Below are positions 3,815-23,008 of a stretch of DNA of 28,090 nt, piece after piece. The stretch lies in IMG/VR virus record IMGVR_UViG_3300030333_000717, positions 8,243 through 36,332 of that record; one strand, given 5' to 3'. The translations under genes were made by a program, and so were the position numbers. Below the pieces are notes generated by a model. It was not told the DNA's origin, made no database searches, and saw only the letters and a list, made by a program, of their open reading frames with translations. Numbering within the stretch: the stretch's first letter is position 1; each line of letters starts with the position of its first letter. Source of the stretch: a virus.

Positions 3815-6800
3815 ATGCCTTACGCTAAAGTCCCCCTTGATAACGGAGAGTCAATACAGTTTTATGTTCCTCAGGGAATGAGTCCTGAACAAGCTACGTC
3901 TATAGCCCCTACTATGTGGCAATATCAGCAGCAGGGTATAGATATTATGGCTCCCCCACCACCTCCTGAAAAAACTATATTTGGGTTTGGTGAAAAAGGT
4001 GCAGGGCGTGCAGGGGAAATACCTAAAGGTATTGCCTCAGGAGGAATAGGGCTATTAGGGTTAGGTGCAGAAGGTATTGCTACTTTATTAAGTGACGCTT
4101 TAGACGCTGACCCTGACAACCAAGAAGCTTTTGTTGATCTTATTCGAGCAGGTACTGAAACACTTCAATCTCCTTTTGCCGCTAAGTATGGTTATGAAGA
4201 TAGCCTTACAAGAAAACTTTCTGAAGGTTTAGGTTCTACTTTACCTTTTTTAGCTTCAGGTTTTGGTGGGTTAGGTGCTCTAGCAAAAGGTACGGCGTTA
4301 GCAGGATCAGCAGGAGCGGGTGCAGCAGCACAGCGAGCTAGAGATGCAGGAGCTACCCAAGAACAAATACAACAAGCTGCCTTACGTGGGTTGCCTGTAG
4401 GTTTAAGCGAAATAGCAATGCCTTTTGGTGCAGCTAAAGTTGTCAAAGCTTTAAGAACCCAAGCTAAAGCAGGGGAAGAAGTTGCTCAAACCGCATTAAG
4501 AAGAATAGGCCGTATAGCTTCAGCAGGAACGGGCGAAGGAGCGCAAGAAGCAGCCGCTGAGATTGCTCAGAATATGATTGCTCAAGATTTGTATGACCCT
4601 GAAACAGGTACGTTTGCAGGTACTGGAGAATCATTTGGTATAGGTGCAGGAGTGGGTGGCATCATTCAAGGGCTACTAGAACTGGCAATTCCGGGCCGCA
4701 CTAGAACTCCTAGTGTTTCAGGGACTGACGTAGATACAGACGCTCCTGAAGGCGGCACTCCTCCAGTTGCTTCACCTACTGAACAGCAAGACCTGTTTGA
4801 TGACCTACCTGCGGGAGCCACCCCTACCACCCCTACTGGTACTATCCAAGAACAACTAGGGCTTTTTGACGCGCCATCGGCTGAAGAACTTCAGCAACAG
4901 TATCCCGCTGCGTTTAGTATACCCCTTGAAGAACTAAAAAAAGAACGCACTACACTTGAAAGTTTAAATATCCCTGACGAAGCTACTTATGATGCTATTG
5001 TAGCTGCACGAACTCAACGTGCTACAAGCGATCCTGCACAAGGTACTTTAGATTTAACTCCTGCTGAACAACCTGCTGAACAACCTGCTGAACAACCTGC
5101 TGCCAAACCAAAAGATAAAGGTAAAGGTAAAGGTAAAGGGTCTGCAATCCGGTTAGATGATGACGGAAATGTAATTAGAGTAGATGGCAAGGAGGTTGCG
5201 GAACCCTTAACGGCAGGAGCAAAAGTTTTAAACGAAGGGCCACAACAAGGTGCTTTAGATTTAGAGACTACTGATACGACTACTGATAAGACAGTACGCC
5301 GCGCCTCCATATTCGGTCAACAACCAACCATAAAAAAAGACGACACGGATGCAGGGATGTCCTTGACAGACGGCACAGAACGTATATCTGTAATAGAAGA
5401 TGCCGCTCGTCAATACGAGTCAGTAGATACTTCAGAAGAAGTCGTGGAAGATCAAACAGTTATAGATCAACGAAAAGCAGCTAAAAAACGGGACGAAGAG
5501 GCTAGGGAAAGAAGAGACGCTGCTATAAAAGCAGAAGAAGCTGTAGACCCTAAATCCTTACCAGAAGACCCACAAACAAATCTTTATGAAGAATTTAATG
5601 AAGAAGCTAAGAGGGGAGAAGAAAAATTTGGAAAGTGGCGTTCTAATATAGACACTGAAGCACTTCCCATTGCCGAAAAAGATATTAGTAACCCTATTAT
5701 CGTAGGTTATCAAAATAGCAAACCGCCTAAAAGAAGTAAGGACACAGGAAGGTTTGAAGTTGCAAAATCTCCCACTCCTGAACAAGGAGCAAGAGCTTAT
5801 TTTAGAAACTATAAGAATCCCGCCTCCGCTATTCGTGCTATAGCAGGAGATGTAGCGTTAGACCGAAAGACTAAAATTAAACCCAGAGGTGTTTTTTCCC
5901 GTAAACAAATAGAGACGATGGGAGCTACAGCCCGTCTTAAACACGCAAAAGCAGCAGAAAAATTTATACGAGACAACCTTAGTGCGCCAACAATAGAAGC
6001 GTTAGATGCTCAAATAGAAGATGCTGCTCGTCAATACCAATCAGCCGAGAGCAGGAAACGAAGAGTCACTCCTCAAACCAAGAAAGATACTATAGCCAAT
6101 AGAAAAAAATTGGCGGCTGCAAAAAAAGACACTGATAGACAACTTACAGAAGCGGATAAGAAAGAAAAGAAAGAGACTAAAGCAGGTAAGATGTCGAGGA
6201 TAGCTCAGGCTATACAGAAGGGTAACTTTCAAGACGCTGTATTGCTAGGTGCTAAAAGTAGTGACCCTACAGTTAGTCTAAGTAATCTTGGAAGAAAACA
6301 ACAAGGCAGAGTATGGGATCAATTATTAAATGATAATCCTGAAACCACAGACATACTTGAGTTAGAAAACCTTGACGAAGTTAGTAACGAAGAAATAGAT
6401 GAAATAGTAGGAGTATTAGGAGGGTCTGAATTAGCACTTCCTAAAAATGCTGTTATAGCCAGTACCTTAGAGGTAGCTACGCCAGTTAAAAATGCTATTA
6501 AAGCAGGGGACATAAAGAAAGTTTACGAACTGTTAAGCGAATCTAGTAATCCTTTAATAGCACGAACTGCAAAAGCTGTATTAGAAAATATTGGTACTAC
6601 CAAAATACGTTTTGGGAAACGTCAAGGGCTTGCCGGGTATTTTGACCCTACTAATAACACTATAACGATTGATCCTGATATAGATGTTAATTCTCATGTT
6701 CTTTTGCATGAAGCAGGTCACGCTATAACTTCACACGTAATAGCTAATGAGCCATTAAACCCTGCTGTACGTCAGCTTCAAAAAGCATATGAATACGCTA

Positions 6801-9800
6801 AATCAGAATTGACTAGCGCCTATGGAAGTGAAAGCTTAGATGAATTTGTAGCTGAAGCGCAATCTAACCCACGGTTTAGATCAGAATTAAATTTACTTCC
6901 TTATAAGTCTACTAAAGGAAGGATGGTGACAGTATGGGAAGCCGTTAAACGAGCTTTCCAGAATATATGGAATAGGCTTTTAGGACGACCTCTTGTAGAA
7001 AAACCTACTAACACAAGTAATATAGATCAGCTTATTGAAGCTATAATAAGTCCTGCTCCTGCTAGTAGGGCTGCTCCTATTTTAGCAATGGATGTAAATG
7101 CTCAATTACGTCAACTAGGGGCGCAATCCAGAACAGGGTATTTAAGTAAAGAAGGTTATAAAAAATCTATTGATGTCACTAAAAAATGGCTCAAAGAAGA
7201 TGCTACACCTTCAGCTACACGAAAAGCCCAAGCAATTTTACCCCTCAACGCTTTAGCGGATTTATACACAGAAGAGTTACCATCTGGTTGGTCTTTATTT
7301 AGAACGATACAAGAAAAGGTAGGCGCACGATCAAAGATACTAGCAGAAATAAAAGATACAGGAGCTTCTCTAGCTAAAAAAATTAAACGAGGCACTAAAC
7401 GTGCTGATATTCTTAATGATTTAGTTATTAGAACTACAATGTCAAAAACAGACCCAAGTAAAGATCGAACTACTTATTCTGATTATTGGGCTTATTGGGA
7501 AGAAAACACTGGAAAGAAACGCGATAGTGGGGCGGTTATTTACAAAGCCAAAGAAAAACATTTTACGTCAGCCGAAGCACGTAACGATTGGGTAAGTAAA
7601 AATTTAGATGGGAAGCAAAACGTTCGCGGGGTTCAAAAACGTAATAAGAATGTAGAAAAACTTAAAGAATGGGATGAATTCCAAAAGCTATGGAACAGTA
7701 AAGAGTTTGGTCAGGAAGGTCGTGATGCGTACATAGAATTAAGAGATGCGTATGCAAGTATATACGACAGACTAATGGATACAGTAGATGATCGCTTACA
7801 AGAATTTGATATAGATTCTAAGTTACGTAAAACTATTAGCGATAAAATATTTGAAAAACTAAAAAATAAAGAGCGTATAGAACCTTACTTCCCACTATAC
7901 CGTCACGGCAAACATTGGCTTACTTTTAAATTAAAAGGAGATGCTGAACCTTATAAAATGTTGTTTGACAGGGCGGTAACCAGACAAGGTTTTGTGTGGG
8001 AGTTAGAAAACAATCCTGAGTTTAAAGATAAAGTTGATCTTTCTACAGTTACAACAAGCGATCAAGAATCAAGTTATACGAAATCTGTAGAGAATATGCA
8101 AACAGGAGCAGCGTTTGATATTTTACAAAATCTAAAATCGCAAAAAGCCCCTCAAGAAATTCAAGATTCTATTATGGAAATTATGCTTGACTCTATGCCA
8201 GAGACAAATGTGCTGCAAATGTTTCGTTCGCGTGCTGAAGTATTAGGGCCAGAAGCTGATGCAATCGGTGTGTACAATAAACGTATGCCCGCATTTGCTC
8301 AACAAATAGTAAATTTAGAATATGAAATACCACTAGAAAAAGTTAATCGAAAACTAGCACAAGAAGCTGACGACAGTAAAGACGATAGTGTACGTGCTGT
8401 ATACAAAGAAAATTTCCAACCTTATATAGCTTTTGCTAACAACCCTAACATTAATGATGTAACTAAATGGACAAAATCTTTAGTGTTTGGGGGTACGTTA
8501 GGGATGAACGTTTCTTCAGTTGTGGCTAACAGCACTAACTTGGGTACTGTAGTGTATCCCGTATTATCAGGTAAGTATGGAGTAAAGGAAACAAGTGCTG
8601 CTATGGCAGATGCCTTTGCATTGTATTTTGGCTCTCCTACTAGAAGAAAACGTGTTGGGGTAGGAGCTAAAGAGTTAGACATGGATGTATGGGATGGGTG
8701 GAATCTAACAAATTGGGATTTTTCTAAAGACGCAGATGGCAAATATAACGACCCTAATTTGCCAGACAAATATAAACATCTTGAAGTGTTAGTTGAAGTA
8801 TTAGAACGCCAAGGTCAGGCTAATAGGTCTACGATTGGAGAAATGACCGACCAAGAAAACCCTGCGCGGGGAGGTATGCAACTTTTTAATTTTGCAATGG
8901 GCGCTATGTTCCATCAAGGAGAACGAGCCAACCGTCAAATAACAGCTATTTCTTCGTTTAATTTACAGTTAGATAAAAAGTTAAAAGAGTTAAAGAAAAA
9001 AGGAATAACTAAACTAAGGAAAAAAGATTTATATGAGGCTGCTTATAAAGCCATAGAGGAAGTAGAGTTTACTAATAGTGGAGCCATGATAGAAACTGCT
9101 CCTAAAGTAGCTCAAAGTAACTTGGGTAGTATTGCTTTAATGTATAAACGTTTCGGTATATCCATGTATTACCTGCAAGCTAGAACAGCTTATCAAGCCC
9201 TTAAACGCGCAAACTCTCCGGAAGAGAAAAGACTAGCGCGCAATCAACTTTACGGATTATTCGGGGCTAGTGCGCTGTTTGCAGGAGTGCAGGGGATACC
9301 TATGTTTGGTGCGGGTATGTTTCTATGGAACCTATTTTTAGATGATGAAGAGGACGATGCTGAAACAAAAACAGCCCGTTTTCTGGGAGAGGGAATGTAC
9401 TCTGGCCCACTAAACGCCATATTTAATATAGATATAGCTCCTCGTATAGGAATGAATAACCTTCTTTATAGAAATAGACCCAATGAGCTATCTACTTTAA
9501 CGGAAAAAATAATTGAGTTTGCAGGTGGCCCTGCTGTAGGAGTAGCTTACGGTAAAATAATTCAGGGAGGAGAGCTAGTAGCAGATGGAGAAGTCTGGAG
9601 AGGGACGGAAAGAATGCTTCCTGCTTTTGCTTCTGGTTGGATGAAATCTTATCGTTATGCAACAGAAGGCGCACGTACTTTAAGAGGTGACCCCATAACC
9701 GAAGCAATAGATTTACGGGCTATCATAGGACAATGGACAGGTTTTAGTCCTGCTTCATACACAAAACAGCTTGAGTTAAATGCAGTAGAGAAACGTAAAG

Positions 9801-10078
9801 AGCGAAACATTCAGGAACGAAGAACAAAACTTTTGGATAATTTGTACCAAGCAGAGAGAGAACGTGATAGCGATGGACAGCGAGAAGTAAGGGAGGAGAT
9901 TAAGGAGTTTAACAAGAGACATAGAAACTACAGAATTACTCCAAGGACAATAGCGCGATCTTTAGGTCAACACAGACGCACTACAAGAGAAGTGGCAGAT
10001 ACAGGCGGGGTTACTTACTCCAGACGTAATAGACAATCAGTAATCCGCAGAAATTTTGAAGCTTTGGGTATAGAGTAA
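3815..10078 (+). CDS. giant polyvalent virion protein: HEAGH metallopeptidase-like and LPD38-like regions
   Basis: At 2087 residues this is the largest gene here; an AGGGAAAC ribosome site precedes the ATG. Residues about 70-300 are Gly/Ala-rich and hydrophobic with helices. Residues 300-560 are disordered, with Pro-Ala-Glu-Gln repeats, a Lys-Gly run and four QxxLFD/QGxLDL motifs (near 325, 347, 409, 478). Residues 965-969 read HEAGH, a zincin HExxH motif, followed near 1010 by DEFVAEAQSNPRF, as in peptidase domains of large polyvalent proteins. Near 1356 is EPYFPLYRHGKHW. Residues about 1550-1900 look like the LPD38 region, with a hydrophobic helix near 1815-1840. The last 100 residues are basic. 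By family knowledge such proteins travel in the virion and can enter the host with DNA. Ejection and peptidase activity are inference. Confidence 0.7.
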   Translation: MPYAKVPLDNGESIQFYVPQGMSPEQATSIAPTMWQYQQQGIDIMAPPPPPEKTIFGFGEKGAGRAGEIPKGIASGGIGLLGLGAEGIATLLSDALDADPDNQEAFVDLIRAGTETLQSPFAAKYGYEDSLTRKLSEGLGSTLPFLASGFGGLGALAKGTALAGSAGAGAAAQRARDAGATQEQIQQAALRGLPVGLSEIAMPFGAAKVVKALRTQAKAGEEVAQTALRRIGRIASAGTGEGAQEAAAEIAQNMIAQDLYDPETGTFAGTGESFGIGAGVGGIIQGLLELAIPGRTRTPSVSGTDVDTDAPEGGTPPVASPTEQQDLFDDLPAGATPTTPTGTIQEQLGLFDAPSAEELQQQYPAAFSIPLEELKKERTTLESLNIPDEATYDAIVAARTQRATSDPAQGTLDLTPAEQPAEQPAEQPAAKPKDKGKGKGKGSAIRLDDDGNVIRVDGKEVAEPLTAGAKVLNEGPQQGALDLETTDTTTDKTVRRASIFGQQPTIKKDDTDAGMSLTDGTERISVIEDAARQYESVDTSEEVVEDQTVIDQRKAAKKRDEEARERRDAAIKAEEAVDPKSLPEDPQTNLYEEFNEEAKRGEEKFGKWRSNIDTEALPIAEKDISNPIIVGYQNSKPPKRSKDTGRFEVAKSPTPEQGARAYFRNYKNPASAIRAIAGDVALDRKTKIKPRGVFSRKQIETMGATARLKHAKAAEKFIRDNLSAPTIEALDAQIEDAARQYQSAESRKRRVTPQTKKDTIANRKKLAAAKKDTDRQLTEADKKEKKETKAGKMSRIAQAIQKGNFQDAVLLGAKSSDPTVSLSNLGRKQQGRVWDQLLNDNPETTDILELENLDEVSNEEIDEIVGVLGGSELALPKNAVIASTLEVATPVKNAIKAGDIKKVYELLSESSNPLIARTAKAVLENIGTTKIRFGKRQGLAGYFDPTNNTITIDPDIDVNSHVLLHEAGHAITSHVIANEPLNPAVRQLQKAYEYAKSELTSAYGSESLDEFVAEAQSNPRFRSELNLLPYKSTKGRMVTVWEAVKRAFQNIWNRLLGRPLVEKPTNTSNIDQLIEAIISPAPASRAAPILAMDVNAQLRQLGAQSRTGYLSKEGYKKSIDVTKKWLKEDATPSATRKAQAILPLNALADLYTEELPSGWSLFRTIQEKVGARSKILAEIKDTGASLAKKIKRGTKRADILNDLVIRTTMSKTDPSKDRTTYSDYWAYWEENTGKKRDSGAVIYKAKEKHFTSAEARNDWVSKNLDGKQNVRGVQKRNKNVEKLKEWDEFQKLWNSKEFGQEGRDAYIELRDAYASIYDRLMDTVDDRLQEFDIDSKLRKTISDKIFEKLKNKERIEPYFPLYRHGKHWLTFKLKGDAEPYKMLFDRAVTRQGFVWELENNPEFKDKVDLSTVTTSDQESSYTKSVENMQTGAAFDILQNLKSQKAPQEIQDSIMEIMLDSMPETNVLQMFRSRAEVLGPEADAIGVYNKRMPAFAQQIVNLEYEIPLEKVNRKLAQEADDSKDDSVRAVYKENFQPYIAFANNPNINDVTKWTKSLVFGGTLGMNVSSVVANSTNLGTVVYPVLSGKYGVKETSAAMADAFALYFGSPTRRKRVGVGAKELDMDVWDGWNLTNWDFSKDADGKYNDPNLPDKYKHLEVLVEVLERQGQANRSTIGEMTDQENPARGGMQLFNFAMGAMFHQGERANRQITAISSFNLQLDKKLKELKKKGITKLRKKDLYEAAYKAIEEVEFTNSGAMIETAPKVAQSNLGSIALMYKRFGISMYYLQARTAYQALKRANSPEEKRLARNQLYGLFGASALFAGVQGIPMFGAGMFLWNLFLDDEEDDAETKTARFLGEGMYSGPLNAIFNIDIAPRIGMNNLLYRNRPNELSTLTEKIIEFAGGPAVGVAYGKIIQGGELVADGEVWRGTERMLPAFASGWMKSYRYATEGARTLRGDPITEAIDLRAIIGQWTGFSPASYTKQLELNAVEKRKERNIQERRTKLLDNLYQAERERDSDGQREVREEIKEFNKRHRNYRITPRTIARSLGQHRRTTREVADTGGVTYSRRNRQSVIRRNFEALGIE
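5060..5140 (+). repeat. two short in-frame tandem repeats (Pro-Ala-Glu-Gln, then Lys-Gly)
   Basis: CCTGCTGAACAA is repeated three times at 5060-5095, with a partial fourth copy to 5104. About 12 bases later GGTAAA-type units repeat to 5140. They encode a Pro/Ala/Glu/Gln linker and then a basic Lys-Gly run, separating the N-terminal hydrophobic part of the giant protein from its later domains. Confidence 0.85.
5393..5423 (+). repeat. dispersed 31-bp repeat, copy 1
   Basis: This segment matches 6014-6044 at 28 of 31 bases. It encodes IEDAARQYES (residues 527-536) of the giant protein, and the second copy encodes IEDAARQYQS (734-743). The flanks do not match, so only the short motif is duplicated. 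Confidence 0.75.
6014..6044 (+). repeat. dispersed 31-bp repeat, copy 2
   Basis: This is the second copy of the motif at 5393-5423, in the same reading frame and 621 bases downstream. It is followed by a very basic stretch (ESRKRRVTPQTKKD). Confidence 0.75.
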
Positions 10079-10276: not shown

Positions 10277-10278
10277 TT

Positions 10279-10301: not shown

Positions 10302-10306
10302 CGCTC

Positions 10307-10319
10307 ACCGACCAAGGAG
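10307..10319 (+). promoter_or_regulatory. leader box copy A (orphan, plus strand)
   Basis: ACCGACCAAGGAG matches the leader box found before four minus-strand genes, but here it lies on the plus strand just after the terminator hairpin and has no convincing gene downstream. A GTG nearby opens only a few codons. It may be chance or a remnant. Confidence 0.35.
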
Positions 10320-10344
10320 AGTGGATACTACGGTATAGATTTTA

Positions 10345-10563
10345 TCACACTACCCGCCATATACGAATACCATACTTACCTGATTCAATAGTTATTCTAC
10401 TTACCACTTCGTGTTTTCCTAACTTAGTTACTTCTAAAACTTGTGCGTATGCTTCCTTGGTGTTTATACAGGGGATGAACACAGAAGTTCCTGATAAAAA
10501 CTTATCCCAATCAACGACCATACGTACCCCATCAGGGGATAAATCAGAAAAGCGTATCCGCAT
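10345..10563 (-). CDS. conserved small phage protein of unknown function
   Basis: This 72-residue protein is the last gene of the leftward transcript. Its ATG lies 20 bases inside the end of the primase-helicase gene, with an AGAAG-type ribosome site. The sequence has an Asp-Trp-Asp start (VVDWDKF), a central hydrophobic segment (TSVFIPCINTKEAYAQV) and an Ile-Arg-Ile-Trp end. This pattern (DWd.f..g.SvFiPc..t..a...v and a G.rIWR ending) resembles a small protein found in several marine phages, where its role is unknown. The overlap and family-like pattern make it likely real. An RNA- or DNA-binding role is possible but nothing here shows it. Confidence 0.65.
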   Translation of the reverse strand: MRIRFSDLSPDGVRMVVDWDKFLSGTSVFIPCINTKEAYAQVLEVTKLGKHEVVSRITIESGKYGIRIWRVV

Positions 10564-13444
10564 CTTCTTCTATAGATAACATGTCTTGTTGGGCTTCTGC
10601 TTGGTCGTTAAGGTGTGCATCTTCCCAGTTGATCGAAAGTACTGTAATAGGGGGTAGGGTTATAGTAGTGCCTTTACCCATGCGTATCTTCTCCTTCTTG
10701 CCGTTAAGTTCATTAGTGGCAAGCTCAACCATAGCGTTATAGTTAAGCTGCTGTTGAACACACCAGTGTTTAAAAGGCTTGACCATCAGATACAACCGCC
10801 CTACATCGTATTCGTGTCTGGCTACCCAGTTATAGGTAGGCATTTGTTCTGCCGTAAGGAGCATATTTAAACCATCTTCTCCCTTACGAGCATCATCTGT
10901 GCTCTTTATGCGTAGTACCCCTCTTATGTTCTCACTGTAGTACTGAGCGATAATCTCCGTAATACTAATGTCCATCTCTTTCATGTCTAACCTAAGCCCC
11001 CTGAGTCTGCCTATTGTCCATTTGAGTAAGTTATTTACGTCCCAATCAATAAGCCCTAAGTGTTTGGCAATCCGTACACCTGTAATGACCGCTCCAGTTT
11101 TTGCTGCCCATATGCGGTTTTGAGGGGTGAGATTAGCTTCCCGAATAATCTTATCCGTAGTTCGCTCCAGTAAAGTTTTTACTTCCGTCTTATGTTGGAG
11201 AACGTACTGAATATACATTATCCCTGCGTGACCATAGTTTTCGGCTAGGTTCTCGTTTAACTCGCGTGCAGCTATAGCTTCCTCGGAAGAGAACAGTAAC
11301 TGAGGTGTACGCTGTTCCAGTACCCTTTGTGTCTCTCCCTTGGGTTGAGCTTTAACAGAACTAATCTTTTCTAATAAACTGGAGTTGCCTGAAGTTCCTA
11401 TAAGAAGGCTCCATTCTTCCCCTCTATACCGTTCTTGGTTGTTTCTCGTAGTCTGCCGATTACGTTGTTTCCCTGCTGTTACCCTGTATACAAAGTCACT
11501 CATAGGTTTGGCGGGTACGTTAGTAATCTCATCCACATACACAGGTAAGTTTTTGTACACTTCTGCTCGGTTCCACATAGAGTTAGTAGTATCGTCTCCA
11601 TCCAACACGAGCTTTTTATGGTTACCCCATACTGTAGCACCACCCCACTGTCCTGTAGTCTTACCGAATCCTGAGTCACCGCTAGTTATATGGTATATAC
11701 CCCCTGCAATGTTAGGAACAAACTCCATTAGGGGTGCGCCAAAGGCTAACCCAAACATAAATTGATGTACTTCAAACTTAGGTTTGTTATAAAACTCTGT
11801 AATTTTCTTCCACCCTTCCAATGTGCCTTTAGGTTCAAAGAAGTTAAAGTATTGGGCTGTTGCTGTAGATGGGGGGTTTTCTTTGATGCTATCAGCAAAG
11901 ATTTCTTTGTCTCCCACCACAAAAGATTTATGGTCAGAAGTCCATCCGAATTGAGTTTTAGCAGGGATTTCATCGTGAGTTTCAATAAGTTGCCTCACCC
12001 ATTTTGCTACGTATCTCATAAGCCTATCCACTTCAGTGGGCAATAAGAATATGTCATTCATACCCATTTCTTTACGGAACTCTTCTTTAGAAGATAATGA
12101 TGTGCCTACTATCGCAAACTCTCGTACACCTTCTCTTATAGTGTGATGTTTAAATACATATGTTGGCCCTTTTACAGGGTCGCGTAAACGTTTCACCAAG
12201 TACAAGTCTTGGCGATATATCTGTTCTTCTACAGGGTCACCCTCTTTATCCTTCTTTCTTATGTATACACCCCCTCTAGCTCCCCTAAAATAAGGATGTG
12301 GGTACTTTGGTATAACGTGTTTCTCTACGTTAGTTAAACCTGACGGACTCGAAACCTCGTCTGTGTCGTCCTCAAGAGAGGGAGTCTCAGCGTATACAAT
12401 GTTATCTTCTTCAGTGGCTTCTCGAATCTCCATACCTAATACGATAGGAGATTTTATTTTCCCTTTGTATCTACAGCCTTCGCAGAGACTTGGGTTGTTG
12501 GCTTCAAAAGTTTCACATAAATGTGGGTAGTCAAGAGACTCTACTACCTTTTCTGTTTCTTCGTATGAATAGTCAGGGTAGTTCTCTGAAATAGCATGTA
12601 CCGCTTCTTTGCCTTCCTTACACCGTTTTGCTATGGATAAAGTACTTACCCACTCAGGATAAGATAAGGTAGAGGCATTCTCGATAGCGTTCTTTATCTG
12701 ATTGCATCCTCTCCCTTGGCCTGTCTTTTCTAGTATCTTTCCAAAACTTTTGTTGTATGTGCTCTCAAACGCTTCTATACGTTCCTTATCTTCAGCTAGT
12801 AATTTCTTATCCTTGTTCACGCTAATGATAGGTACACCCCCAAGCTTTTCGGCAAACACTTCTAAAGAAGTGATCCCGTTTAAAGGGCCACATAAATGTA
12901 CATCGGCAGGAGGAGTAGCTTTAAAGTTATGAGTATACGGTACTCTAAGTATTCGGGCAGCGTCTGCTGTAACAACAGGGTCAGCGTGCAATCCATGTTT
13001 GGCACACGCGCCTTTTAATCGTTCAGCTACAGGCATCCACTCACTAGAAGTACACTCTTTATCTAAAGCCCAATAGACATGCAGCCCTCTGCCAGAATTA
13101 ACTACCGCAGTAGGTTTTGGTAAGTCATAAAACTCACAAAATGCCCGCAATGCTTCAGCAGCTTCTGTTTGTGTGGGGTATGGCTTACCTTCCCCACAGT
13201 CTAAATCTAAAAAGAAAGACTTCAGAAAAGAAGAGTGTTCCGCCCTTCGTGAGTGTTTGTTGAACGTACTTAAAGCAAAGTACGTATCATATCCTTCTTG
13301 GTCAAAGTTAAGTGCCGAATCAACTACCGAATCTATAGTGTCATAAAATTTTTGAACTGTTACGTTGTCTTTAGTTCGTATACCTAATACACAATAAAAC
13401 CCTTGGTCACTCAGCACCGTACTTAGAAACTTTTTAGTTTCCAT
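10544..13444 (-). CDS. primase-helicase: AEP-like primase region plus DUF927-type ATPase
   Basis: This 966-residue protein joins two replication functions. Residues about 70-170 look like an archaeo-eukaryotic-type primase: FFLDLDCG (Asp80, Asp82), SGRGLHVYW (Ser117-His122), and RILRVPYTHN near 164-173. Around 308-324, H-x-C and C-x2-C followed by GKIKSPIVLG resemble a zinc-binding link. The helicase part has Walker A GDSGFGKT (589-596), Walker B VYVDE (635-639) and a DUF927-like polar segment after it. The likely role is priming and unwinding at the phage fork; no separate DnaB-like helicase is visible in the window. It starts at ATG with AAGGGG upstream and follows the ssDNA-binding gene. 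Primer synthesis itself is inferred from motifs. Confidence 0.82.
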   Translation of the reverse strand: METKKFLSTVLSDQGFYCVLGIRTKDNVTVQKFYDTIDSVVDSALNFDQEGYDTYFALSTFNKHSRRAEHSSFLKSFFLDLDCGEGKPYPTQTEAAEALRAFCEFYDLPKPTAVVNSGRGLHVYWALDKECTSSEWMPVAERLKGACAKHGLHADPVVTADAARILRVPYTHNFKATPPADVHLCGPLNGITSLEVFAEKLGGVPIISVNKDKKLLAEDKERIEAFESTYNKSFGKILEKTGQGRGCNQIKNAIENASTLSYPEWVSTLSIAKRCKEGKEAVHAISENYPDYSYEETEKVVESLDYPHLCETFEANNPSLCEGCRYKGKIKSPIVLGMEIREATEEDNIVYAETPSLEDDTDEVSSPSGLTNVEKHVIPKYPHPYFRGARGGVYIRKKDKEGDPVEEQIYRQDLYLVKRLRDPVKGPTYVFKHHTIREGVREFAIVGTSLSSKEEFRKEMGMNDIFLLPTEVDRLMRYVAKWVRQLIETHDEIPAKTQFGWTSDHKSFVVGDKEIFADSIKENPPSTATAQYFNFFEPKGTLEGWKKITEFYNKPKFEVHQFMFGLAFGAPLMEFVPNIAGGIYHITSGDSGFGKTTGQWGGATVWGNHKKLVLDGDDTTNSMWNRAEVYKNLPVYVDEITNVPAKPMSDFVYRVTAGKQRNRQTTRNNQERYRGEEWSLLIGTSGNSSLLEKISSVKAQPKGETQRVLEQRTPQLLFSSEEAIAARELNENLAENYGHAGIMYIQYVLQHKTEVKTLLERTTDKIIREANLTPQNRIWAAKTGAVITGVRIAKHLGLIDWDVNNLLKWTIGRLRGLRLDMKEMDISITEIIAQYYSENIRGVLRIKSTDDARKGEDGLNMLLTAEQMPTYNWVARHEYDVGRLYLMVKPFKHWCVQQQLNYNAMVELATNELNGKKEKIRMGKGTTITLPPITVLSINWEDAHLNDQAEAQQDMLSIEEDADTLF

Positions 13445-13457
13445 AGTATCCCCTTAG

Positions 13458-13489
13458 GTGTAAGTGCAAGGTTTCCCTCACACTTACAC
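13458..13489 (-). promoter_or_regulatory. inverted repeat in the leader of the primase-helicase gene
   Basis: Nine-base arms, GTGTAAGTG (13458-13466) and CACTTACAC (13481-13489), flank a 14-base loop. On the minus strand the hairpin ends 2-3 bases before the AAGGGG ribosome site of the primase-helicase. No T-run follows, so it does not look like a terminator. It could modulate translation or bind a protein. Confidence 0.5.
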
Positions 13490-13505
13490 GGTGCATTACT
13501 TATTG

Positions 13506-14252
13506 TTATTCATCGTCCCATTTATCTAAGAGGTTAGTAACTTCCTTAGCCTCTGGTGTAGCAGGGATGATGTCTGCCTTAGGGGTTTTGACCTTAGGTT
13601 CGGCAAATAGTTCATCTGCATCATCTTCTGGTGGTTTAGCAGGTGTAGGTGTTGGAGCAGCCCCATTAGTCACGGGGGCAGCAGAAAAACCATCTGCGTT
13701 TACAAACCCTTCTGTAGCTTCAAAAGGTGAGGAAGAAACCATTTCCGCAAGGTCAATTACCTGTACGGAACGTAACCGTAAGGTTACACCTGTAGCTTTA
13801 GATGAAGGAACTTTATAAGGGATTACGGCTACGGCAATATTTACCGTACTGCCTGTAGTTAATTGAAATCCCTCAGGAAGTTTGTTTACCTTAGCATCGA
13901 ACTGGTCAGGTGCTTTAGTAGGAACACTATCGTATGCTGCCTTAATAGAAGCTTTGCCTACGAAAGTACCGTCCTCTTGCTCCTTAAACGGTTGATCTAA
14001 CTTCTCGTTCCAATCAGCATCACGCTTAGGTGAATTTTTATATTCGGTATTCATAACCTTATATAAATCTTTAGCTTGGTCTGGAGTCATTACAAAATCA
14101 ACTTGGTATGCAGCACCATCGTCTGTCGCTGCACAAGGAACGCTCTTTCCTTTTTCCCCTGCTGATGTATCAAACCTATATGGTCTATCCATTTTAGGAT
14201 AACGTGCTTTCACATTATTAATTATGTGAAACTTATTCTGGTTATTAGCCAT
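13506..14252 (-). CDS. putative single-stranded DNA-binding protein
   Basis: This 248-residue protein has an N-terminal globular half rich in beta-type sequence (KFHIINNVKARYPKMDRPYRFD; VNIAVAVIPYKV; VTLRLRSVQVIDLA) and a long disordered C-terminal third, Pro/Ala-rich and ending acidic (LLDKWDDE). That layout, an OB-like core plus an acidic tail, fits phage ssDNA-binding proteins of the DUF2815/gp2.5 kind. It sits between a zinc-cysteine protein and the primase-helicase, as expected for a replication protein. Its ATG overlaps the upstream stop region by 8 bases, with GAGG upstream. DNA binding is inferred from layout and context, not from a diagnostic motif. Confidence 0.6.
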   Translation of the reverse strand: MANNQNKFHIINNVKARYPKMDRPYRFDTSAGEKGKSVPCAATDDGAAYQVDFVMTPDQAKDLYKVMNTEYKNSPKRDADWNEKLDQPFKEQEDGTFVGKASIKAAYDSVPTKAPDQFDAKVNKLPEGFQLTTGSTVNIAVAVIPYKVPSSKATGVTLRLRSVQVIDLAEMVSSSPFEATEGFVNADGFSAAPVTNGAAPTPTPAKPPEDDADELFAEPKVKTPKADIIPATPEAKEVTNLLDKWDDE

Positions 14253-15012
14253 TGTTTAAGTCCTCATTGTTTGCATAAATAAACCCTTCCTGTACTGCAA
14301 AGGGAGATTTAGATTTACTAGATAATAAAAGTGCTGACTGTGTGGATGGGTCATCTTTAAGTTGCACAGCTACTGCTAGTTCTTCTTCGGTCAAAGGCCG
14401 AACTGGGTTAAACACAAGCCTTGGTAAATTACTAGACTTATCAAAACTTATGTTGGTAACTACCGAAACTAACGGGGCGCTATTGGCGTTAAGATGTTTT
14501 AAGTATGCTTGCATACACATCTTATGTGGGTCTTTTCCAAACACACTTGTAGCGGGTAATTGTAGTTGATAAACCTTAGGGGTAAACCCTTCTTCCTCTA
14601 CAAAACAAAACGCTATTCGTTGATGGAATCTACAAGCCCTGCTGTTACCTTCGCCTGACCCCTTTATATTTTTCTCGCATGTCAGACAGTTATTACTTTG
14701 CTTCTCACCTACCTCTTCATCAGGTCGAGAGTTGCGTGTATCACTAGACCAACATACAGGTTTAGTGTGAGCCTCAGGGTTATATGTATTAGGATAGTAG
14801 GTTCGAGAAACAGGAGCCGCAGTAAGGATTACTCCTTCTACTACAGTACCTTTAATGTTAGAACTTTCTTCTTCTATACACGTAAACACACCATCTCGAA
14901 TACTAATACGATTCGTAAATTCAGGTGTTACCTCAGGCGGTTTGCTTTTTAAACGGGAAATTAACCCTTGATAAAGAGGGTTTAGCTCCTTTTCATTTCC
15001 TTCTTCATCCAT
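14245..15012 (-). CDS. conserved phage protein with zinc-type cysteine cluster, replication block
   Basis: This 255-residue protein has Cys87, Cys109, Cys112 and Cys127 (PVCWSSD, NNCLTCEKN, SRACRFH). They could form a zinc site, with His130 nearby. The spacing and the CLTCEKNIKGSG pattern resemble a family found beside ssDNA-binding proteins in several phages. The rest is beta-rich with an acidic N-terminus. It starts 2 bases after the stop of the HTH gene and overlaps the start of the ssDNA-binding-like gene by 8 bases, so the genes are likely coupled. A role in DNA binding or recombination is inferred from neighbours; I cannot name a function. Confidence 0.55.
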   Translation of the reverse strand: MDEEGNEKELNPLYQGLISRLKSKPPEVTPEFTNRISIRDGVFTCIEEESSNIKGTVVEGVILTAAPVSRTYYPNTYNPEAHTKPVCWSSDTRNSRPDEEVGEKQSNNCLTCEKNIKGSGEGNSRACRFHQRIAFCFVEEEGFTPKVYQLQLPATSVFGKDPHKMCMQAYLKHLNANSAPLVSVVTNISFDKSSNLPRLVFNPVRPLTEEELAVAVQLKDDPSTQSALLLSSKSKSPFAVQEGFIYANNEDLNNG

Positions 15013-15014
15013 GT

Positions 15015-15281
15015 CTATTCGTCTTCGTAGTATTCAGAAAATAAATCTAGTTGCTGTGCTGCTTCTTCACTTGGCTTGGGGATAATATCTGGTTCGATCT
15101 TCCCATTCTTTAGCCCTGAAATAACTTCAGCGATACAGAAACGATATGTATTACCTACTTTTATGTAGCTCTCTTTAGGTATCACCCCACTCCGCACCCA
15201 ACTTCGTACAGTAGTTACGGCTAAAGAAAGATGCCCTGCTAGTGTTTCTATCGGTACATATTTGTCTTCACACACATTCAC
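15015..15281 (-). CDS. MerR/excisionase-type HTH protein with C-terminal QLDLF clamp-binding motif
   Basis: This 88-residue protein has a winged-helix excisionase/MerR-like core at residues 8-58: YVPIETLAGHLSLAVTTVRSW, then GVIPKESYIKVGNTYRF. That is the HTH_17 pattern, in which the second helix reads bases and the wing follows. After a short linker the tail holds QLDLF at 77-81, matching the consensus QL(S/D)LF by which bacterial proteins bind the DNA polymerase III sliding clamp. Its start overlaps the upstream stop (ATGA). No integrase is visible, so a lysogeny excisionase role is unlikely; a regulator or replication-accessory protein fits better. HTH assignment is firm; clamp binding is a motif-based inference. 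Confidence 0.75.
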   Translation of the reverse strand: MNVCEDKYVPIETLAGHLSLAVTTVRSWVRSGVIPKESYIKVGNTYRFCIAEVISGLKNGKIEPDIIPKPSEEAAQQLDLFSEYYEDE

Positions 15282-15685
15282 TTTTTTGCTCTCCTTACAG
15301 TTACCGTGTACTGGCTATCACAGCGTAACCCTGCGGGTAAAACCTCAGGATTATCTTCTAAAAATTGTCTCATGTTGCCTTGATGAATCCGTTTCTCTAA
15401 CAATTCAGGAACTCCGTGTTCCATTATGACTTTATTAAGAGCAGACCAATCCGTAGTAGTGTAGCGTCTACGCTCTTGGCGGTAGAACTGATGACCGTCC
15501 ATAGTAGTGCCACTCTTACTGCCACTATTAACTAAATGCTGTTGTATGATTGCATCTAGTTGATCTAAATCCTCGTTAAGAGCTTCCTCTTCTTCTTTGA
15601 AACGTTGAGATAGCTCACGTTTTGCTTCGCGTACCTTTACATACATACGCACTGCCTTATCGACAGGTATATCATTTGCTTCCAT
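15278..15685 (-). CDS. conserved helical phage protein, Gp157-like in layout
   Basis: This 135-residue protein has a charged N-terminal coiled-coil (residues about 10-52: VRMYVKVREAKRELSQRF, then EEEALNEDLDQLDAIIQQHL), a short beta part (SGTTMDGHQFYRQERRRYTT) and an Asp-Trp-led helix (TDWSALNKVIMEHG). A helical arm followed by 'G..fy......' strands and 'Dw......' recalls small phage proteins near nuclease, ssDNA-binding and helicase genes, some called Gp157-like. Ribosome site GGGAG lies 7 bases before the ATG. A sigma70-like promoter sits just upstream, so this may be the first gene of a sub-operon. No catalytic motif is visible. Confidence 0.6.
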   Translation of the reverse strand: MEANDIPVDKAVRMYVKVREAKRELSQRFKEEEEALNEDLDQLDAIIQQHLVNSGSKSGTTMDGHQFYRQERRRYTTTDWSALNKVIMEHGVPELLEKRIHQGNMRQFLEDNPEVLPAGLRCDSQYTVTVRRAKK

Positions 15686-15713
15686 ATTACACTCCCACTG
15701 TGTTAAGAAGCTG

Positions 15714-15742
15714 AGTATAGTGCTATATTATTTGTTATTCAA
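15714..15742 (-). promoter_or_regulatory. sigma70-like promoter for the HTH/SSB/primase sub-operon
   Basis: On the minus strand, TTGAAT (15742-15737) and TATACT (15719-15714) are separated by exactly 17 bases of A/T-rich DNA. They match the -35 consensus at 4 of 6 and the -10 at 5 of 6. The site overlaps the end of the SNF2 helicase gene and lies about 30 bases before the 135-residue gene. It could drive that gene through the primase-helicase. It is supported by consensus only. Confidence 0.45.
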
Positions 15743-17273
15743 GCAATTCTTTGTATAAGTCTATTATTTTTGTGTGTATGTTTATTTTGCTATCGAGAAG
15801 TGTGTATACACGTTTCTCTACGTTAGAACCTTCTAGCTGAACCACCGTACATTTATGCGTCTGTCCTGACCTATGTACTCTAGCGTTTGCTTGAGCGTAT
15901 GTTTCTAGCGAAGGTACTGGCCCCCACCATACGACTGTATTTGCGGCTGTCAGTGTCACTCCATGTGCGGCTGCTTGGGGTTGTATCACTAATACTTGAG
16001 GGTTATCTGTCTCTTGGAATCTTTTGAATATGTCTGTTCGGCGGCTTGCTGACACATCCCCTTTAATCATTTCGGTAGGGATACCATCTTCAATAAGTTT
16101 CTCAGAAAGAATTTCAATAACGTGTTTGAAAGGGACGAACACCAATACTTTTTGTGTTGTCTCGTCAATAACCTCACGTAGAACTTTGTATCTGTTTTTA
16201 ATATCAAACTCTACGGTTTCGCCCGAATCGCTATACACTGCCCCACAAGATATTTGTAATAGCTTATTCATGTTTACAGCCGCATTAGCTGCTGTTATTT
16301 CTTCCCCTGCTGCTACAGTTACCATCTTACGTTTTAGTACGTCATAATAAGTTTGCTGCTGCCGCGTAAGTTGAATTTCGCGTTTAGTATACGTCATTGG
16401 GGGTAGGTCAAGGCATTGGTCTTTAGTGAACCTTATGGCAGGTTGAAGGGCATTAAAAACAGTATCCGTCGCTGAGTCTTTTGGAACCCACTTGAACTGA
16501 GTAACTTTGTGCATTACTAACTCACGGAACCCACTAAAAAACCTTGGTACATTTCGTGGGTTAATAAGTTTGGCTAGGCCGTATGCGTCTACAGGAGACT
16601 GTGCTGCGGGTGTACCTGTCATCATCCACAGCCATGTAGAAGGAGCCATCAACGAGTTAAGAGTCTTCCACCTTTTAGATTGAGCGTTTTTATAATGCGT
16701 AGCCTCATCAGCAATTATTAAATCAAACCCTCCTTCTTCTATCTCGTCTTTAATAATCTCTACACCATCATAGTTTATGATAACGTAGTCTGCTCCGTTG
16801 GCTATGATCTCCTGACGTTTACGTTTAGAACCATGAGCAATATCGACAGTACGGTGCATAGCAAACTTGAACAGGTCGGAACGCCACGCAGAATCCATAA
16901 TAGATAGGGGGCATATAATCAGGACACGGTTTATAACCCCTTGTTTTAAAAGGAAATCTGAAGCCCATATAGCAGAAGCTGTTTTACCTGTTCCTTGTTC
17001 GTTAAAGCAAAAAGCTCGTTGGTTTAAAGTAAGAAATGCTGCCGTAAGTTTTTGATGTTTAAAGGGTTTATGCTGACCGCCCCATGCGTACTGCCCCAGT
17101 ATAGGTGAAGGTACGTCTCGGATGTTTAAGTTTTTTAAAACGCGAGACTCGTCTACCCCCCACTTCACAAGGACTTCATTGTTCCGTAGTTCTTTACTCT
17201 TGGGTATGGCGGTAGTTATAGCTTCAGGAGTACGTACTCGTAGCAATAAAGCTTTATTTTCTACAATCTGCAT
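15735..17273 (-). CDS. SNF2-family (superfamily 2) helicase/translocase
   Basis: This 512-residue protein has the two RecA-like lobes of an SF2 ATPase. Motif I is NEQGTGKT (91-98). Motif II is IADEAT (DEAT at 189-192). Motif III is MTGTP near 218. The second lobe carries VLVFVPFKHVIEIL, then QPQAAAHGVTLTAANTVVWW (motif V) and ARVHRSGQ (motif VI). HRSGQ and the overall order are typical of SNF2 proteins, which move along double-stranded DNA. Phage members usually sit beside recombination and replication genes, as here. Its length fits a compact phage member without extra domains. It starts immediately after the stop of the small basic gene. Its exact substrate is unknown. Confidence 0.88.
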   Translation of the reverse strand: MQIVENKALLLRVRTPEAITTAIPKSKELRNNEVLVKWGVDESRVLKNLNIRDVPSPILGQYAWGGQHKPFKHQKLTAAFLTLNQRAFCFNEQGTGKTASAIWASDFLLKQGVINRVLIICPLSIMDSAWRSDLFKFAMHRTVDIAHGSKRKRQEIIANGADYVIINYDGVEIIKDEIEEGGFDLIIADEATHYKNAQSKRWKTLNSLMAPSTWLWMMTGTPAAQSPVDAYGLAKLINPRNVPRFFSGFRELVMHKVTQFKWVPKDSATDTVFNALQPAIRFTKDQCLDLPPMTYTKREIQLTRQQQTYYDVLKRKMVTVAAGEEITAANAAVNMNKLLQISCGAVYSDSGETVEFDIKNRYKVLREVIDETTQKVLVFVPFKHVIEILSEKLIEDGIPTEMIKGDVSASRRTDIFKRFQETDNPQVLVIQPQAAAHGVTLTAANTVVWWGPVPSLETYAQANARVHRSGQTHKCTVVQLEGSNVEKRVYTLLDSKINIHTKIIDLYKELLE

Positions 17274-17543
17274 TTACTTCTTCTTTTTGTAGTTTCGTGA
17301 ACGGTTAGCACTACGGCTTTCAATTCGGTATCCCTGTTTGTTGGAACCGCCTCGACTCAATGCTTTATTATGGCTTACGTCTTTCCCTTCCCTACGGTCG
17401 GCCTTACCGTTCTTATTACGGTCTACCCCTGCTTTATCTACCGCTCGTCTTGCCCTTTGTCTTTCCATTCGGGCTTTGAACGGCTTGCTTCCCACAGGTT
17501 TATTAACTTGTTTCTTGCGATCTTTAGGATTTTTATAAGGCAT
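17274..17543 (-). CDS. small basic HNH-like phage protein
   Basis: This 89-residue protein is extremely rich in Lys and Arg. Its C-terminal half reads GKDVSHNKALSRGGSN, then RIESRSANRSRN, which resembles the 'DvdH......GGsn...N....s...NrsR' skeleton of HNH endonuclease cores. One of the usual histidines is not evident, so it may be a degenerate, non-cutting DNA-binding version. AGGAG lies 6 bases before the ATG. It sits between the PD-(D/E)XK nuclease and the SNF2 helicase. Similar small proteins are common in phage replication blocks. Function is uncertain. Confidence 0.6.
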   Translation of the reverse strand: MPYKNPKDRKKQVNKPVGSKPFKARMERQRARRAVDKAGVDRNKNGKADRREGKDVSHNKALSRGGSNKQGYRIESRSANRSRNYKKKK

Positions 17544-17544
17544 A

Positions 17545-18219
17545 TTATCTCCTACCGTTATGAGGACATTCAGTTACTACGCAGTGTGCTCTACATAAAC
17601 CTGTTGGTCTAGGGTTCCACACATCTACGTCATAGGCTTTCTCTAGTTTAGCGTATTCTATTAGCCACTTTTGCCACATCTCCGATTCCTGATCTATGGT
17701 ATAAGTGTCCTTTATAAAGGCGTTACATATAACAAAGAGTAAACCCCCCTTTACTTTTTTCACTTCAGGGAAATGTTTAAATGTAGCCAATGCCATAAGT
17801 TCTAGTTGGCCTTTATCTGCATACTTAGCTGACTTCCCTGTTTTGTAGTCTATTACTTTAGCAGTACCTGTTTTCCTATCTAATATAGTAAGGTCAGCTA
17901 CTCCTCTCCACCATACGTTCTCGTCAAAAAAACCGCATGGCTCCAGATTAGCAGTTAGCCCCATCCTGTATTCGCAAAGCTTTTCGCCTTCCATAGCGTT
18001 GAGCCTATCAAGGATGTCTTTGGCAAACGTAAAGCGGGGGTCAAGTTCAGAATCAGTGCCGTCTATGTAGTGTTCCGCAGCAGTATGAAATTCTGAGCCA
18101 TACGTCATCGCACGCGAAGTAGGCTCCGCGTAATCTTTAGCTACCTTGAGGTGGTAGTATTTTTTAGGGCATTGGTCGAAGCTTTTTATACTGCTAAAAG
18201 ACCATGCGGGTTTTTCCAT
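17545..18219 (-). CDS. PD-(D/E)XK nuclease with Fe-S-type cysteines (Cas4/RecB-like)
   Basis: I place the start at the internal ATG giving MEKPAWSFSS, 224 residues. GGAG lies about 10 bases before it and the family homology begins there; the longer frame to 18306 adds an unlikely Arg-rich stretch inside the polymerase gene. Nuclease motifs are His45, RGVADL (Asp109), IDYKTGK (Asp124, Lys126) and Gln138. Cys17 (DQCPKKY) together with Cys209, Cys213 and Cys218 at the C-terminus match the one-plus-three cysteine layout of AddB/Cas4-type 4Fe-4S clusters. The role is probably processing DNA ends in replication or recombination. It overlaps the end of the polymerase gene by 34 bases. Confidence 0.8.
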   Translation of the reverse strand: MEKPAWSFSSIKSFDQCPKKYYHLKVAKDYAEPTSRAMTYGSEFHTAAEHYIDGTDSELDPRFTFAKDILDRLNAMEGEKLCEYRMGLTANLEPCGFFDENVWWRGVADLTILDRKTGTAKVIDYKTGKSAKYADKGQLELMALATFKHFPEVKKVKGGLLFVICNAFIKDTYTIDQESEMWQKWLIEYAKLEKAYDVDVWNPRPTGLCRAHCVVTECPHNGRR

Positions 18220-20057
18220 TCCTTGCAATCTCCGTAGTTCTTCCCTATTTGCACATCTCCTGTAAGAGGCAACCCTTCTGCCCATACAGGAACCCACTGC
18301 ATACACTCTTCTACAAAGTATGCAGCAGTATCAACTTCCTTGTTTGGTACACAGCATACCACACTATCATGCACTGTAAGCAATACCTTGTACCTTTTTG
18401 CTATTAAAAGCATTTGTTCGGCCATAATACATCGGGCTATACCCTGACATATGTTCTCTATAGCTTTACCACCATATATCTTGTTCCACCCCCGCCGAGT
18501 TCGGTATACCAACTGCATACCATTTTCATCTTGCTCCACTTTGAGGTTATCGTAACGCATCAATAATCCTGATGGTAAACGTATAGCATTGTATTCTGGT
18601 ACAACCTTAACTATTCCCGGCCTTCCAAGTTCATACGTGTCTCCTTGATACATACCTACAAGGGCTGCCTGTGCCTGTCTCCATAAAGCAGGGATAGCAT
18701 TGTTAGCATCTCTATATACTTTGATAATGCGTTTTGCTTCTTGAGGTTCTACTTCAACCCCAAAGTTTTTAAGTTGGTTTTGGAATTTGACGGCTCCCAT
18801 CCCATACCCTGCACCCAAGATTGTAGTCTTCCCAATGAAACGTTGTTCAGGAGATATATCTTCCACAGGCTTATTGTAAATATCAGAGGCCATTATCTTG
18901 TACACATCCTCTCCTTTCTGGAAAGCTGTCACTAAGGTCTGGTGTTCAGCAAGCCATGCCAATACTCGCGCTTCGATTTGCGCCGAATCCGATTCAATAA
19001 GTGTGTACCCTTCAGGAGCTACAATACAGGACTTCAATACTTTGGCGTTTTGCCCCCTGCTCGGTAGGTTTTGAAGATTGATTTTGTCATACCCTCCCCA
19101 CCTACCTGTGTGTGCAGCGTAGTATTTAATGGGTACAGGAAGTGTGCCTCTACTTGCTATATCTAAAAACTTCTGAGTACGTGTTTCCTCAAGTGTGCTT
19201 TTAAGTCCAATCCTAGCAGCTACTAAGGTTTGTACCTTTGTGTCTTCATGGTCTTGGAGAGCCACAAAATCTTCATCGCTCTTGGCAAACGCAAACGTTT
19301 CTTCTCCAGTACGAGGACTTATTTTGGTAGGGGGGTTAACTCCGAGAGACTCCAATGCTTTCGCAAACTTAGGGTTAGACATAAGTTCGTCTTTGTCTAT
19401 ACCGAGTTGTTTAATGTGTGCTACAAGTTCTTCTTTCTCGTCCTTGATAGACTCAAGATGGTTTGTAAGTTTGGGAATGTCTAGCTCCAACATCGGATGA
19501 GTAAACATCCTCAAAGTCATATCTATGACCTTTAACTCTTTCTTGGGGAAGTTATGTAAGAAACGATTGAATAACTCGTAAGTCAATTCTGTGTCGTTTA
19601 CGCAGTAGTCTCCGTATCGTGCAAGTTCCTCAGATGTAAAGTCACACCTATGTTTACCCGCCGCATTTAATATCTCGTCTCCCTTCTCCCCTATACCGTA
19701 CAGTTCAGCTAGGTTTTTGAGACTTGCACTAACCTCGACACCGTGGATAGCGCGAGACATGCTGAGAGTATCAAACCATACGCGAGGAGATATACCAAAA
19801 AGCCAATGAAGAATAGCCCCATCGAACATGCAATTATGAGCAAGTACAGCACATTCGCTCCAGTTGTAGGAGCGACATACATACTCTTTAAGATCATTGA
19901 AGTCTCCCGACAACCAGTGTGTTTCTCCATCGTTGACCTTTATAGACATCCCAATGACTTCAAATTCAGGATGACGTATGTACTCCTCTGTAGTTAGTTT
20001 CTTTAGTGATATATCTTTATCGTAATAGGTTTCAAAATCAATCGTTATTAGCTCCAT
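18186..20057 (-). CDS. polA: family A DNA polymerase with 3'-5' exonuclease (Leu at the Phe762 position)
   Basis: This 623-residue protein is the replicative polymerase. Exonuclease motifs are intact: Exo I DFET (Asp7, Glu9), Exo II HNCMFD (Asp79) and Exo III YCVND (Tyr151, Asp155). Polymerase motif A is ESDSAQIEAR (Asp357). Motif B is RFIGKTTILGAGYG (Arg406, Lys410, Leu414, Tyr418). Motif C is TVHDS (Asp564). No 5'-3' exonuclease domain is present, as in T7-like enzymes. Leu414 aligns with E. coli Pol I Phe762, a variant frequent in marine viruses. Motif C has Ser where Glu is usual. GGGGAAAC precedes the ATG. The window shows no clamp or clamp loader gene. Confidence 0.95.
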   Translation of the reverse strand: MELITIDFETYYDKDISLKKLTTEEYIRHPEFEVIGMSIKVNDGETHWLSGDFNDLKEYVCRSYNWSECAVLAHNCMFDGAILHWLFGISPRVWFDTLSMSRAIHGVEVSASLKNLAELYGIGEKGDEILNAAGKHRCDFTSEELARYGDYCVNDTELTYELFNRFLHNFPKKELKVIDMTLRMFTHPMLELDIPKLTNHLESIKDEKEELVAHIKQLGIDKDELMSNPKFAKALESLGVNPPTKISPRTGEETFAFAKSDEDFVALQDHEDTKVQTLVAARIGLKSTLEETRTQKFLDIASRGTLPVPIKYYAAHTGRWGGYDKINLQNLPSRGQNAKVLKSCIVAPEGYTLIESDSAQIEARVLAWLAEHQTLVTAFQKGEDVYKIMASDIYNKPVEDISPEQRFIGKTTILGAGYGMGAVKFQNQLKNFGVEVEPQEAKRIIKVYRDANNAIPALWRQAQAALVGMYQGDTYELGRPGIVKVVPEYNAIRLPSGLLMRYDNLKVEQDENGMQLVYRTRRGWNKIYGGKAIENICQGIARCIMAEQMLLIAKRYKVLLTVHDSVVCCVPNKEVDTAAYFVEECMQWVPVWAEGLPLTGDVQIGKNYGDCKEWKNPHGLLAV

Positions 20058-20598: not shown

Positions 20599-20603
20599 TG
20601 GTA

Positions 20604-20873: not shown

Positions 20874-20937
20874 TGTCAGTCTCCTCTCATTAAGTCTTCC
20901 TACACCTCTTTTAAATACTTTTCCTCTACCCATTATT

Positions 20938-21276: not shown

Positions 21277-21280
21277 CTTT

Positions 21281-21295: not shown

Positions 21296-21299
21296 GTGG

Positions 21300-22717: not shown

Positions 22718-23008
22718 CTAACCGCAATCCATTAGTGCCGTGTGAATTTCATCCATGTTATCTTCGTTAATAACTAATGCCAGTCCCCCAGAAGATTCGA
22801 TACGTGACAGTTCACGTTCCTGTAAAGCAGTAGTTGTGTTCTTACCTGCTTTACATTCAATAGCGAAAAATTTTCCTTGGTAGCATCCCACTATATCAGG
22901 TACACCACTACGTCCGTAGCCACCTGTTGCCGGAAAGAAATAGTATGCACCTAGTTCTTTAAGAATGCTAGATGCTTTTTGTTTAACTTTCTTTTCTGGT
23001 GTCATCAT
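22718..23008 (-). CDS. VRR-NUC family endonuclease
   Basis: This 96-residue protein matches the compact VRR-NUC fold of the PD-(D/E)XK nucleases: GYGRSGVPDIVGCYQGKF (Asp38), then FFAIECKAGK (Glu51, Lys53), then T-x2-Q (Gln63). Phage stand-alone members are thought to cut branched DNA such as replication or recombination intermediates, perhaps as oligomers. GAGGAG lies about 4 bases before ATGATG. It overlaps the upstream 91-residue gene by 26 bases. Activity is inferred from complete catalytic motifs. Confidence 0.88.
   Translation of the reverse strand: MMTPEKKVKQKASSILKELGAYYFFPATGGYGRSGVPDIVGCYQGKFFAIECKAGKNTTTALQERELSRIESSGGLALVINEDNMDEIHTALMDCG

Follow-up and report, generated by a model that had tools for sequence, protein, structure and literature searches.

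The conserved feature of the phages studied here is, judging by their predicted proteins, a clamp-binding peptide within the replication module, and not the place of this peptide on a helix-turn-helix (HTH) protein. The window that we analyzed (28,090 nucleotides, positions 8243-36332 of an IMG/VR virus record of 36,332 bases) encodes an 88-aa HTH protein whose tail is a well-supported candidate for a clamp-binding motif (CBM) under selection, and we consider it somewhat probable that this tail is a genuine short linear motif for the beta-clamp, through which the phage would engage the DnaN of its host. Across the related phages, the CBM is near-exclusive to one small protein per phage, and the carrier changes between clades. 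That such a peptide is kept on differing small proteins suggests that these phages depend on seizing the host replication clamp. We propose, with a confidence that falls a little short of even, that this PolA-encoding phage family as a whole depends on the host clamp through one movable peptide of the top-affinity kind, gained and lost on at least three, and perhaps six, unrelated small proteins, and that the peptide, rather than its carrier, represents the conserved function.

The gene for the HTH protein begins with a GTG codon, in a four-base overlap (GTGA) with the stop of the 135-aa gene upstream, and the position of this start is identical in the close relatives L001-L003. An AlphaFold2 model built from 62 family members predicts a winged HTH at residues 7-58 (pLDDT about 77-90), with the E-H-H-E-E-H order of a winged-HTH fold, followed by disorder from residue 61 onward (pLDDT about 45-49). 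The top Foldseek matches of this model were Pukovnik Xis (4j2n), BldC (6ama/6amk), RdfS (8dgl), and MerR DNA-binding domains, with a probability of about 1, yet all with E > 0.01. The Pfam HTH_17 match of the window protein (22.3 bits) lies below the cut-off of 27, which is exceeded in the relatives L182 (35.9 bits) and L074 (29.9 bits). Matches to MAD1 (PADLOC, NCBIfam) were discarded, as they are due to the HTH portion only. The original prediction had located QLDLF at residues 77-81 of an 88-residue protein, in a probably flexible tail, and our results agree on all counts, with a real ORF and a predicted-disordered, hence accessible, segment in which QLDLF fits the Q-phi-x-[LM]-[FL] pattern. 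Across the motif-bearing relatives, the spacing between GNTYRF and the motif ranges from 24 to 36 residues. The features of the window are listed in Table 1.

Table 1. Features of the window discussed in the text, with coordinates counted from the first base of the window.
Feature	Coordinates	Strand	Basis or remark
88-aa HTH protein with clamp-binding motif	15281..15015	minus	GTG start, ORF list and relatives
Predicted winged-HTH domain, residues 7-58, excisionase/BldC/MerR-DBD-like	15108..15263	minus	AlphaFold2, Foldseek
Predicted disordered, hypervariable linker, residues 59-76	15054..15107	minus	pLDDT about 49
Candidate CBM QLDLF, residues 77-81	15039..15053	minus	homologue tails, consensus QLxLF / QLxLxF
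Acidic C-terminus SEYYEDE, residues 82-88	15018..15038	minus	acidic ends across HTH family
Window HTH tail peptide			AAQQLDLFSEYYEDE; other candidate tail peptides PVQLELDFNNPDEDA, EEQLEFDFDADVDV
135-aa protein upstream of HTH, without CBM	15278..15685	minus	4-nt overlap with HTH gene
255-aa protein downstream of HTH	14245..15012	minus	no CBM in last 40 residues
gp2.5-like ssDNA-binding protein (SSB)	13506..14252	minus	phrog_112
Primase/helicase (DUF927)	10544..13444	minus	domain matches
SNF2-type helicase	15735..17273	minus	domain match
89-aa very basic protein	17274..17543	minus	HNH-like GKDVSHNKALSRGGSN stretch
PD-(D/E)XK exonuclease	17545..18306	minus	domain matches
Family-A DNA polymerase (PolA)	18186..20057	minus	domain match
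Hjc/VRR-NUC-like nuclease, without CBM here	22718..23008	minus	homologue is CBM carrier in some related phages
2087-aa virion protein	3815..10078	plus	

According to a 2024 review (PMC11139829), canonical CBMs follow the patterns Q-phi-x-[LM]-[FL] and Q-phi-x-[LM]-x-[FL], with the highest affinity reached by QLxLF and QLxLxF; no known pentapeptide binds the clamp more strongly than QLDLF, and LQLELDF was the most abundant peptide in a phage-display screen. The tail had been proposed to match the sliding-clamp-binding consensus, and QLDLF does fit the QLxLF form of that review (PMC11139829). The window clade carries this strongest pentapeptide, and another clade of HTH proteins carries QLELDF. 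We infer that the HTH tail would bind the host DnaN.

Taken by itself, the single QLDLF match in the window is not compelling, given that a canonical CBM arises in 0.7% of shuffles of the window tail (about 0.5-0.7% for window-type tails) and that the window encodes about 30 proteins. A chance resemblance in a low-complexity tail could also draw on the presence of similar strings in the virion protein, but we regard it as highly improbable because the motif is conserved in homologues, belonging to three clades, with the residues fixed and the codons varying synonymously, and because the CBM of the HTH protein and those found on two other proteins are mutually exclusive. As for the virion protein, the strings in question are QQDLF and QLGLF (residues 324-351), in linkers that look disordered, and its relatives carry two QLDLF (G009), QLDLF and QLNLF (G028), and QLELF, QMSLF, or QLGLDL elsewhere (the loci concerned are L213, L218, L225, L231, L257, L262, and L266); were this protein ejected with the DNA, it might be a second clamp ligand.

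Relatives of the HTH protein were collected from IMG/VR, with 43 in the first scan and 90 distinct sequences after wider scans, one of which used a single pattern from a motif-bearing tail (ELDFNNPD) and five from the remaining protein; the number of distinct sequences differs slightly between analyses (90 or 95), and the choice of start is approximate. The CBM is present at the tail in three separate clades among the 90 sequences. In the first, which includes the window protein, the relatives about 90% identical to it (L001-L003) retain QLDLF, and those about 70% identical (L004/L005) carry QQDLF, thereby keeping QxDLF, so that absence from close homologues, which would have spoken against the original prediction, did not occur when the tails were aligned. 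The second clade ends in PVQLEL(D/A/V)(F/L)N.PD.D(I/M/A), which contains a hexapeptide CBM, and the third carries a hexapeptide CBM at the same place in its ending QLEF(D/N)(F/L).AD.D(V/I), with a Phe at position 4 that is outside the strict consensus. The two larger CBM-bearing clades have an invariant Q and each use five of the six Leu codons for Leu-2, and position 5, which is free in the consensus, is occupied by D, A, V, or N; the linkers vary between relatives while the CBM residues stay fixed. With the strict pattern, a CBM falls within the last 40 residues of 45/95 HTH orthologues, about half, a share that has to be read as a biased frequency, as one search pattern was taken from the motif tail. 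The corresponding count is 2/14 for the VRR-NUC orthologues and zero in the remaining nine orthologue sets of neighboring genes.

A group of HTH proteins about 50% identical to that of the window ends in LLELLDEDQ, without a CBM. These tails were considered as degenerate CBMs and were not counted as such. Within this CBM-less group (L006-L033) the ending DLLELLD(E/D)DQ is nearly invariant, and for this reason it probably serves some other conserved partner. On a tree of the SNF2 helicase (104 rows, computed by a quick method with SH-aLRT support only), the three CBM-bearing clades lie apart, with motif-less clades interspersed. Such scatter would reflect either repeated gains or repeated losses of the motif; gain appears to fit better, because the window clade uses the pentapeptide form and the others the hexapeptide form. 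A scan of GTDB, with each species represented by one genome, gave 106 stretches matching a search pattern; none encoded a relative of the HTH protein, and therefore no prophage or host link came from that source. The cultured-phage collection yielded distant homologues only, and those inspected were short, tail-less, and in different gene contexts.

CBMs on other proteins were also sought, both in contigs of phages whose HTH protein has the motif and in contigs of phages whose HTH protein lacks it. Considering the deduplicated stretches where a VRR-NUC or CPxC gene is present, a CBM on either protein was found in none of the 18 phages with a CBM-bearing HTH protein vs. 21 of the 26 others (Fisher p about 3e-8, indicative only, as the rows are related), and 2 of these 21 have a degenerate QFGLPL. 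The VRR-NUC of the CBM-HTH phages has no CBM. Most loci of the LLELLDEDQ clade have QLELPL or QLELPF at the end of a small CPxC...CxxC protein whose gene lies just upstream of polA, and L006 has the degenerate QFGLPL on its CPxC protein; in the EPSIDDDF clade, a CPxC protein ends in QLELPF. In L033, the motif (QLELPL) is on a separate, apparently helical protein of 81 aa. The Hjc/VRR-NUC-like protein has the motif in or near its end in phages with other HTH tails, namely QLELDL (with the HTH tail NVNLDDDY), QLELDF (QGYTDDEDL and GQGYTDEDL), QLEFDF (VTVDLDEDM), QLTLNF (PDYNLDDDI), and QLILDF (TIAEFDDDI), and QFVLDF, followed by about 20 residues, with the tail RGYADDEDL. Lastly, WENIQQEDL phages have QLELPF near the N-terminus of a DUF6378 protein whose gene is directly upstream of polA, and GLNENDDI phages have QLSLAL on a 218-aa protein; these two carriers are weaker, having been found by looking at whole proteins after the tail scan found nothing, and they and the helical protein come from few contigs each.

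A tight-pattern scan of 19 virus records returned tail CBMs on the HTH, CPxC, and VRR-NUC carriers only. The carrier survey, run on genomes that are mostly fragments, covered clades other than ADIDLDDDI, NFDSLDEDQ, and FNINQDDDL. No convincing carrier was seen in the stretches examined from the HALDTDEDV clade, and with one clade in this situation we do not claim a strict rule of exactly one carrier in every genome. The string QIHFSF near the end of the primase of this clade was set aside; it aligns by eye with VLSINWEDA of the window primase, which is well before the protein end. None of the VRR-NUC homologues from six cultured phages, RHph_TM3_14A among them, carries a CBM in its tail, and the stretches examined of KPP25 and RHph_TM3_14A, which have related polymerases, showed no clear tail CBM.

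The absence of a phage clamp gene, on which the original prediction also relied, was borne out for the window, the entire 36.3-kb record, and 41 related records, mostly fragments. No DnaN was detected by PF00712 in the record of the window and 22 related records, nor by PF02768 in 20 related records (42 virus records in all, 41 related and the window's, with one related record in both sets), these models being such that a clamp diverged beyond them would escape detection. The order polA, PD-(D/E)XK exonuclease, 89-aa basic protein, SNF2 helicase, 135-aa protein, HTH protein, (255-aa protein), SSB, and DUF927 primase-helicase is shared by nearly all loci. The 135-aa protein matches a PHROG labeled "minor head protein", yet is always in the replication operon; this label looks wrong, and a partnership with the HTH protein is possible. 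The 89-aa basic protein has no Pfam match and is as much as 85% identical in certain distant relatives, more than its neighbors. In the window and its relatives, the gp2.5-like SSBs terminate in conserved acidic stretches that include an aromatic residue (IIDDWDD, SMFDDD), which is what one would expect of a T7-like recruiting tail. No iteron-like origin repeats were found in positions 10050-28090 of the window, the record being incomplete.

If the tail does bind the clamp, the choice is between two options, recruitment and inhibition. In the first, which we infer with less certainty than the binding to DnaN, a CBM tether independent of its carrier would prevail over host partners in the competition for the clamp groove, bringing the host clamp to a phage replication complex with the family-A polymerase, and in the window phage the HTH domain would add binding to phage DNA. 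We favor such a tether because the polymerase has no tail CBM of its own (none in 106 orthologues) and the carriers are encoded in or beside the polA operon. It is possible, but rather unlikely in our judgment, that the small protein is instead a poison that fills the DnaN groove and shuts off host replication, whatever its fold. The carrier folds are indeed unrelated (HTH, nuclease, CPxC, DUF6378, helical), the phage encodes its own family-A polymerase, primase-helicase, and SSB, and a phage inhibitor of the clamp exists in Gp168 of Twort, albeit acting in the DNA channel. Furthermore, natural clamp ligands carry weak motifs and not, as seen here, the strongest binders, and overexpression of MGPRQLDLF inhibits colony formation by E. 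coli (PMC11139829). On the other hand, the carrier genes are within a conserved replication operon, several carriers resemble DNA-transaction proteins, and the HTH protein, with a conserved core, is retained where the motif is absent, all of which speaks against a poison.

The gp2.5 protein of phage T7 has an acidic C-terminal tail that binds phage replication proteins, and the tail of the HTH protein could conceivably do the same, its likeness to a CBM being incidental. Acidic C-termini are in fact found throughout the HTH family, even without the motif, as well as in the phage SSB. We hold this to be quite improbable, however, as CBMs of both 5 and 6 residues are present, fixed and variable at the positions proper to each canonical form, and different proteins carry the same peptide. 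A coupling of transcription to the clamp, with the HTH domain on phage promoters and the tail on clamps of replicating DNA in the manner of T4 gp33/gp55, also seems improbable. Such a reading would account for a DNA-binding domain followed by a C-terminal CBM on a divergent linker, much as the clamp epitope of gp55 is arranged (PMC2988020), but in sister phages the motif is carried by nucleases and by other proteins that would hardly act at promoters, and no sigma-like or RNA polymerase-binding part was recognized in the HTH protein by Pfam or in the AlphaFold2 model, which has a winged HTH and a disordered tail only. That sister phages have the CBM on other proteins (a nuclease, a CPxC protein, and, it appears, three more) also weakens the part of the original prediction in which the HTH domain specifically links phage DNA to the clamp, whereas the other part, a clamp-binding tail, is upheld by the signs of selection in its homologues.

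To our knowledge, little is established about how family-A-polymerase phages outside the T7 model achieve processivity and take over host replication. A CBM that is kept while its carrier changes represents a rare natural experiment, and points to the host clamp as something that this phage family probably requires repeatedly. It also lends itself to simple tests at the peptide level, and the tails of these phages are naturally selected candidate ligands for the clamp, a recognized antibacterial target.

In the open-access papers examined, CBMs are described for proteins of the host, initiators of plasmids, and the T4 coactivators, along with a single phage inhibitor of the clamp that acts at a different site, and we found in them no account of this HTH family or of a CBM that changes carrier within a phage family. 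The predicted fold of residues 7-58 is that of the excisionase/BldC/MerR-type winged HTH (HTH_17), yet the distant homologues inspected, from phages of Lachnospiraceae and Streptococcus, have a length of about 65 aa, no tail, and other gene contexts. Pol IV (RQLVLGL) and Hda have a terminal CBM as well, and the CPxC carrier has a hexapeptide-type motif, QLELP(L/F), but Pol IV and Hda are host proteins without an HTH domain. Gp168 is also a phage protein aimed at the host beta-clamp; it fills the DNA channel and not the CBM groove (PMC11139829), whereas the CBM of the window protein would imply the groove. T4 gp33 and gp55 are phage proteins with C-terminal clamp-binding segments, the epitope of gp55 being located on a divergent linker (PMC2988020); they target, however, the clamp of T4 itself, gp45, and RNA polymerase, while here the protein is an excisionase-like HTH in a phage where no clamp gene was found. 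TrfA, the initiator of plasmid RK2, likewise belongs to a mobile element, binds DNA, and has a CBM that is directed at the host clamp and needed for replisome assembly (PMC4980987); TrfA, however, is a plasmid initiator of an unrelated family, whereas the phage motif moves between carriers.
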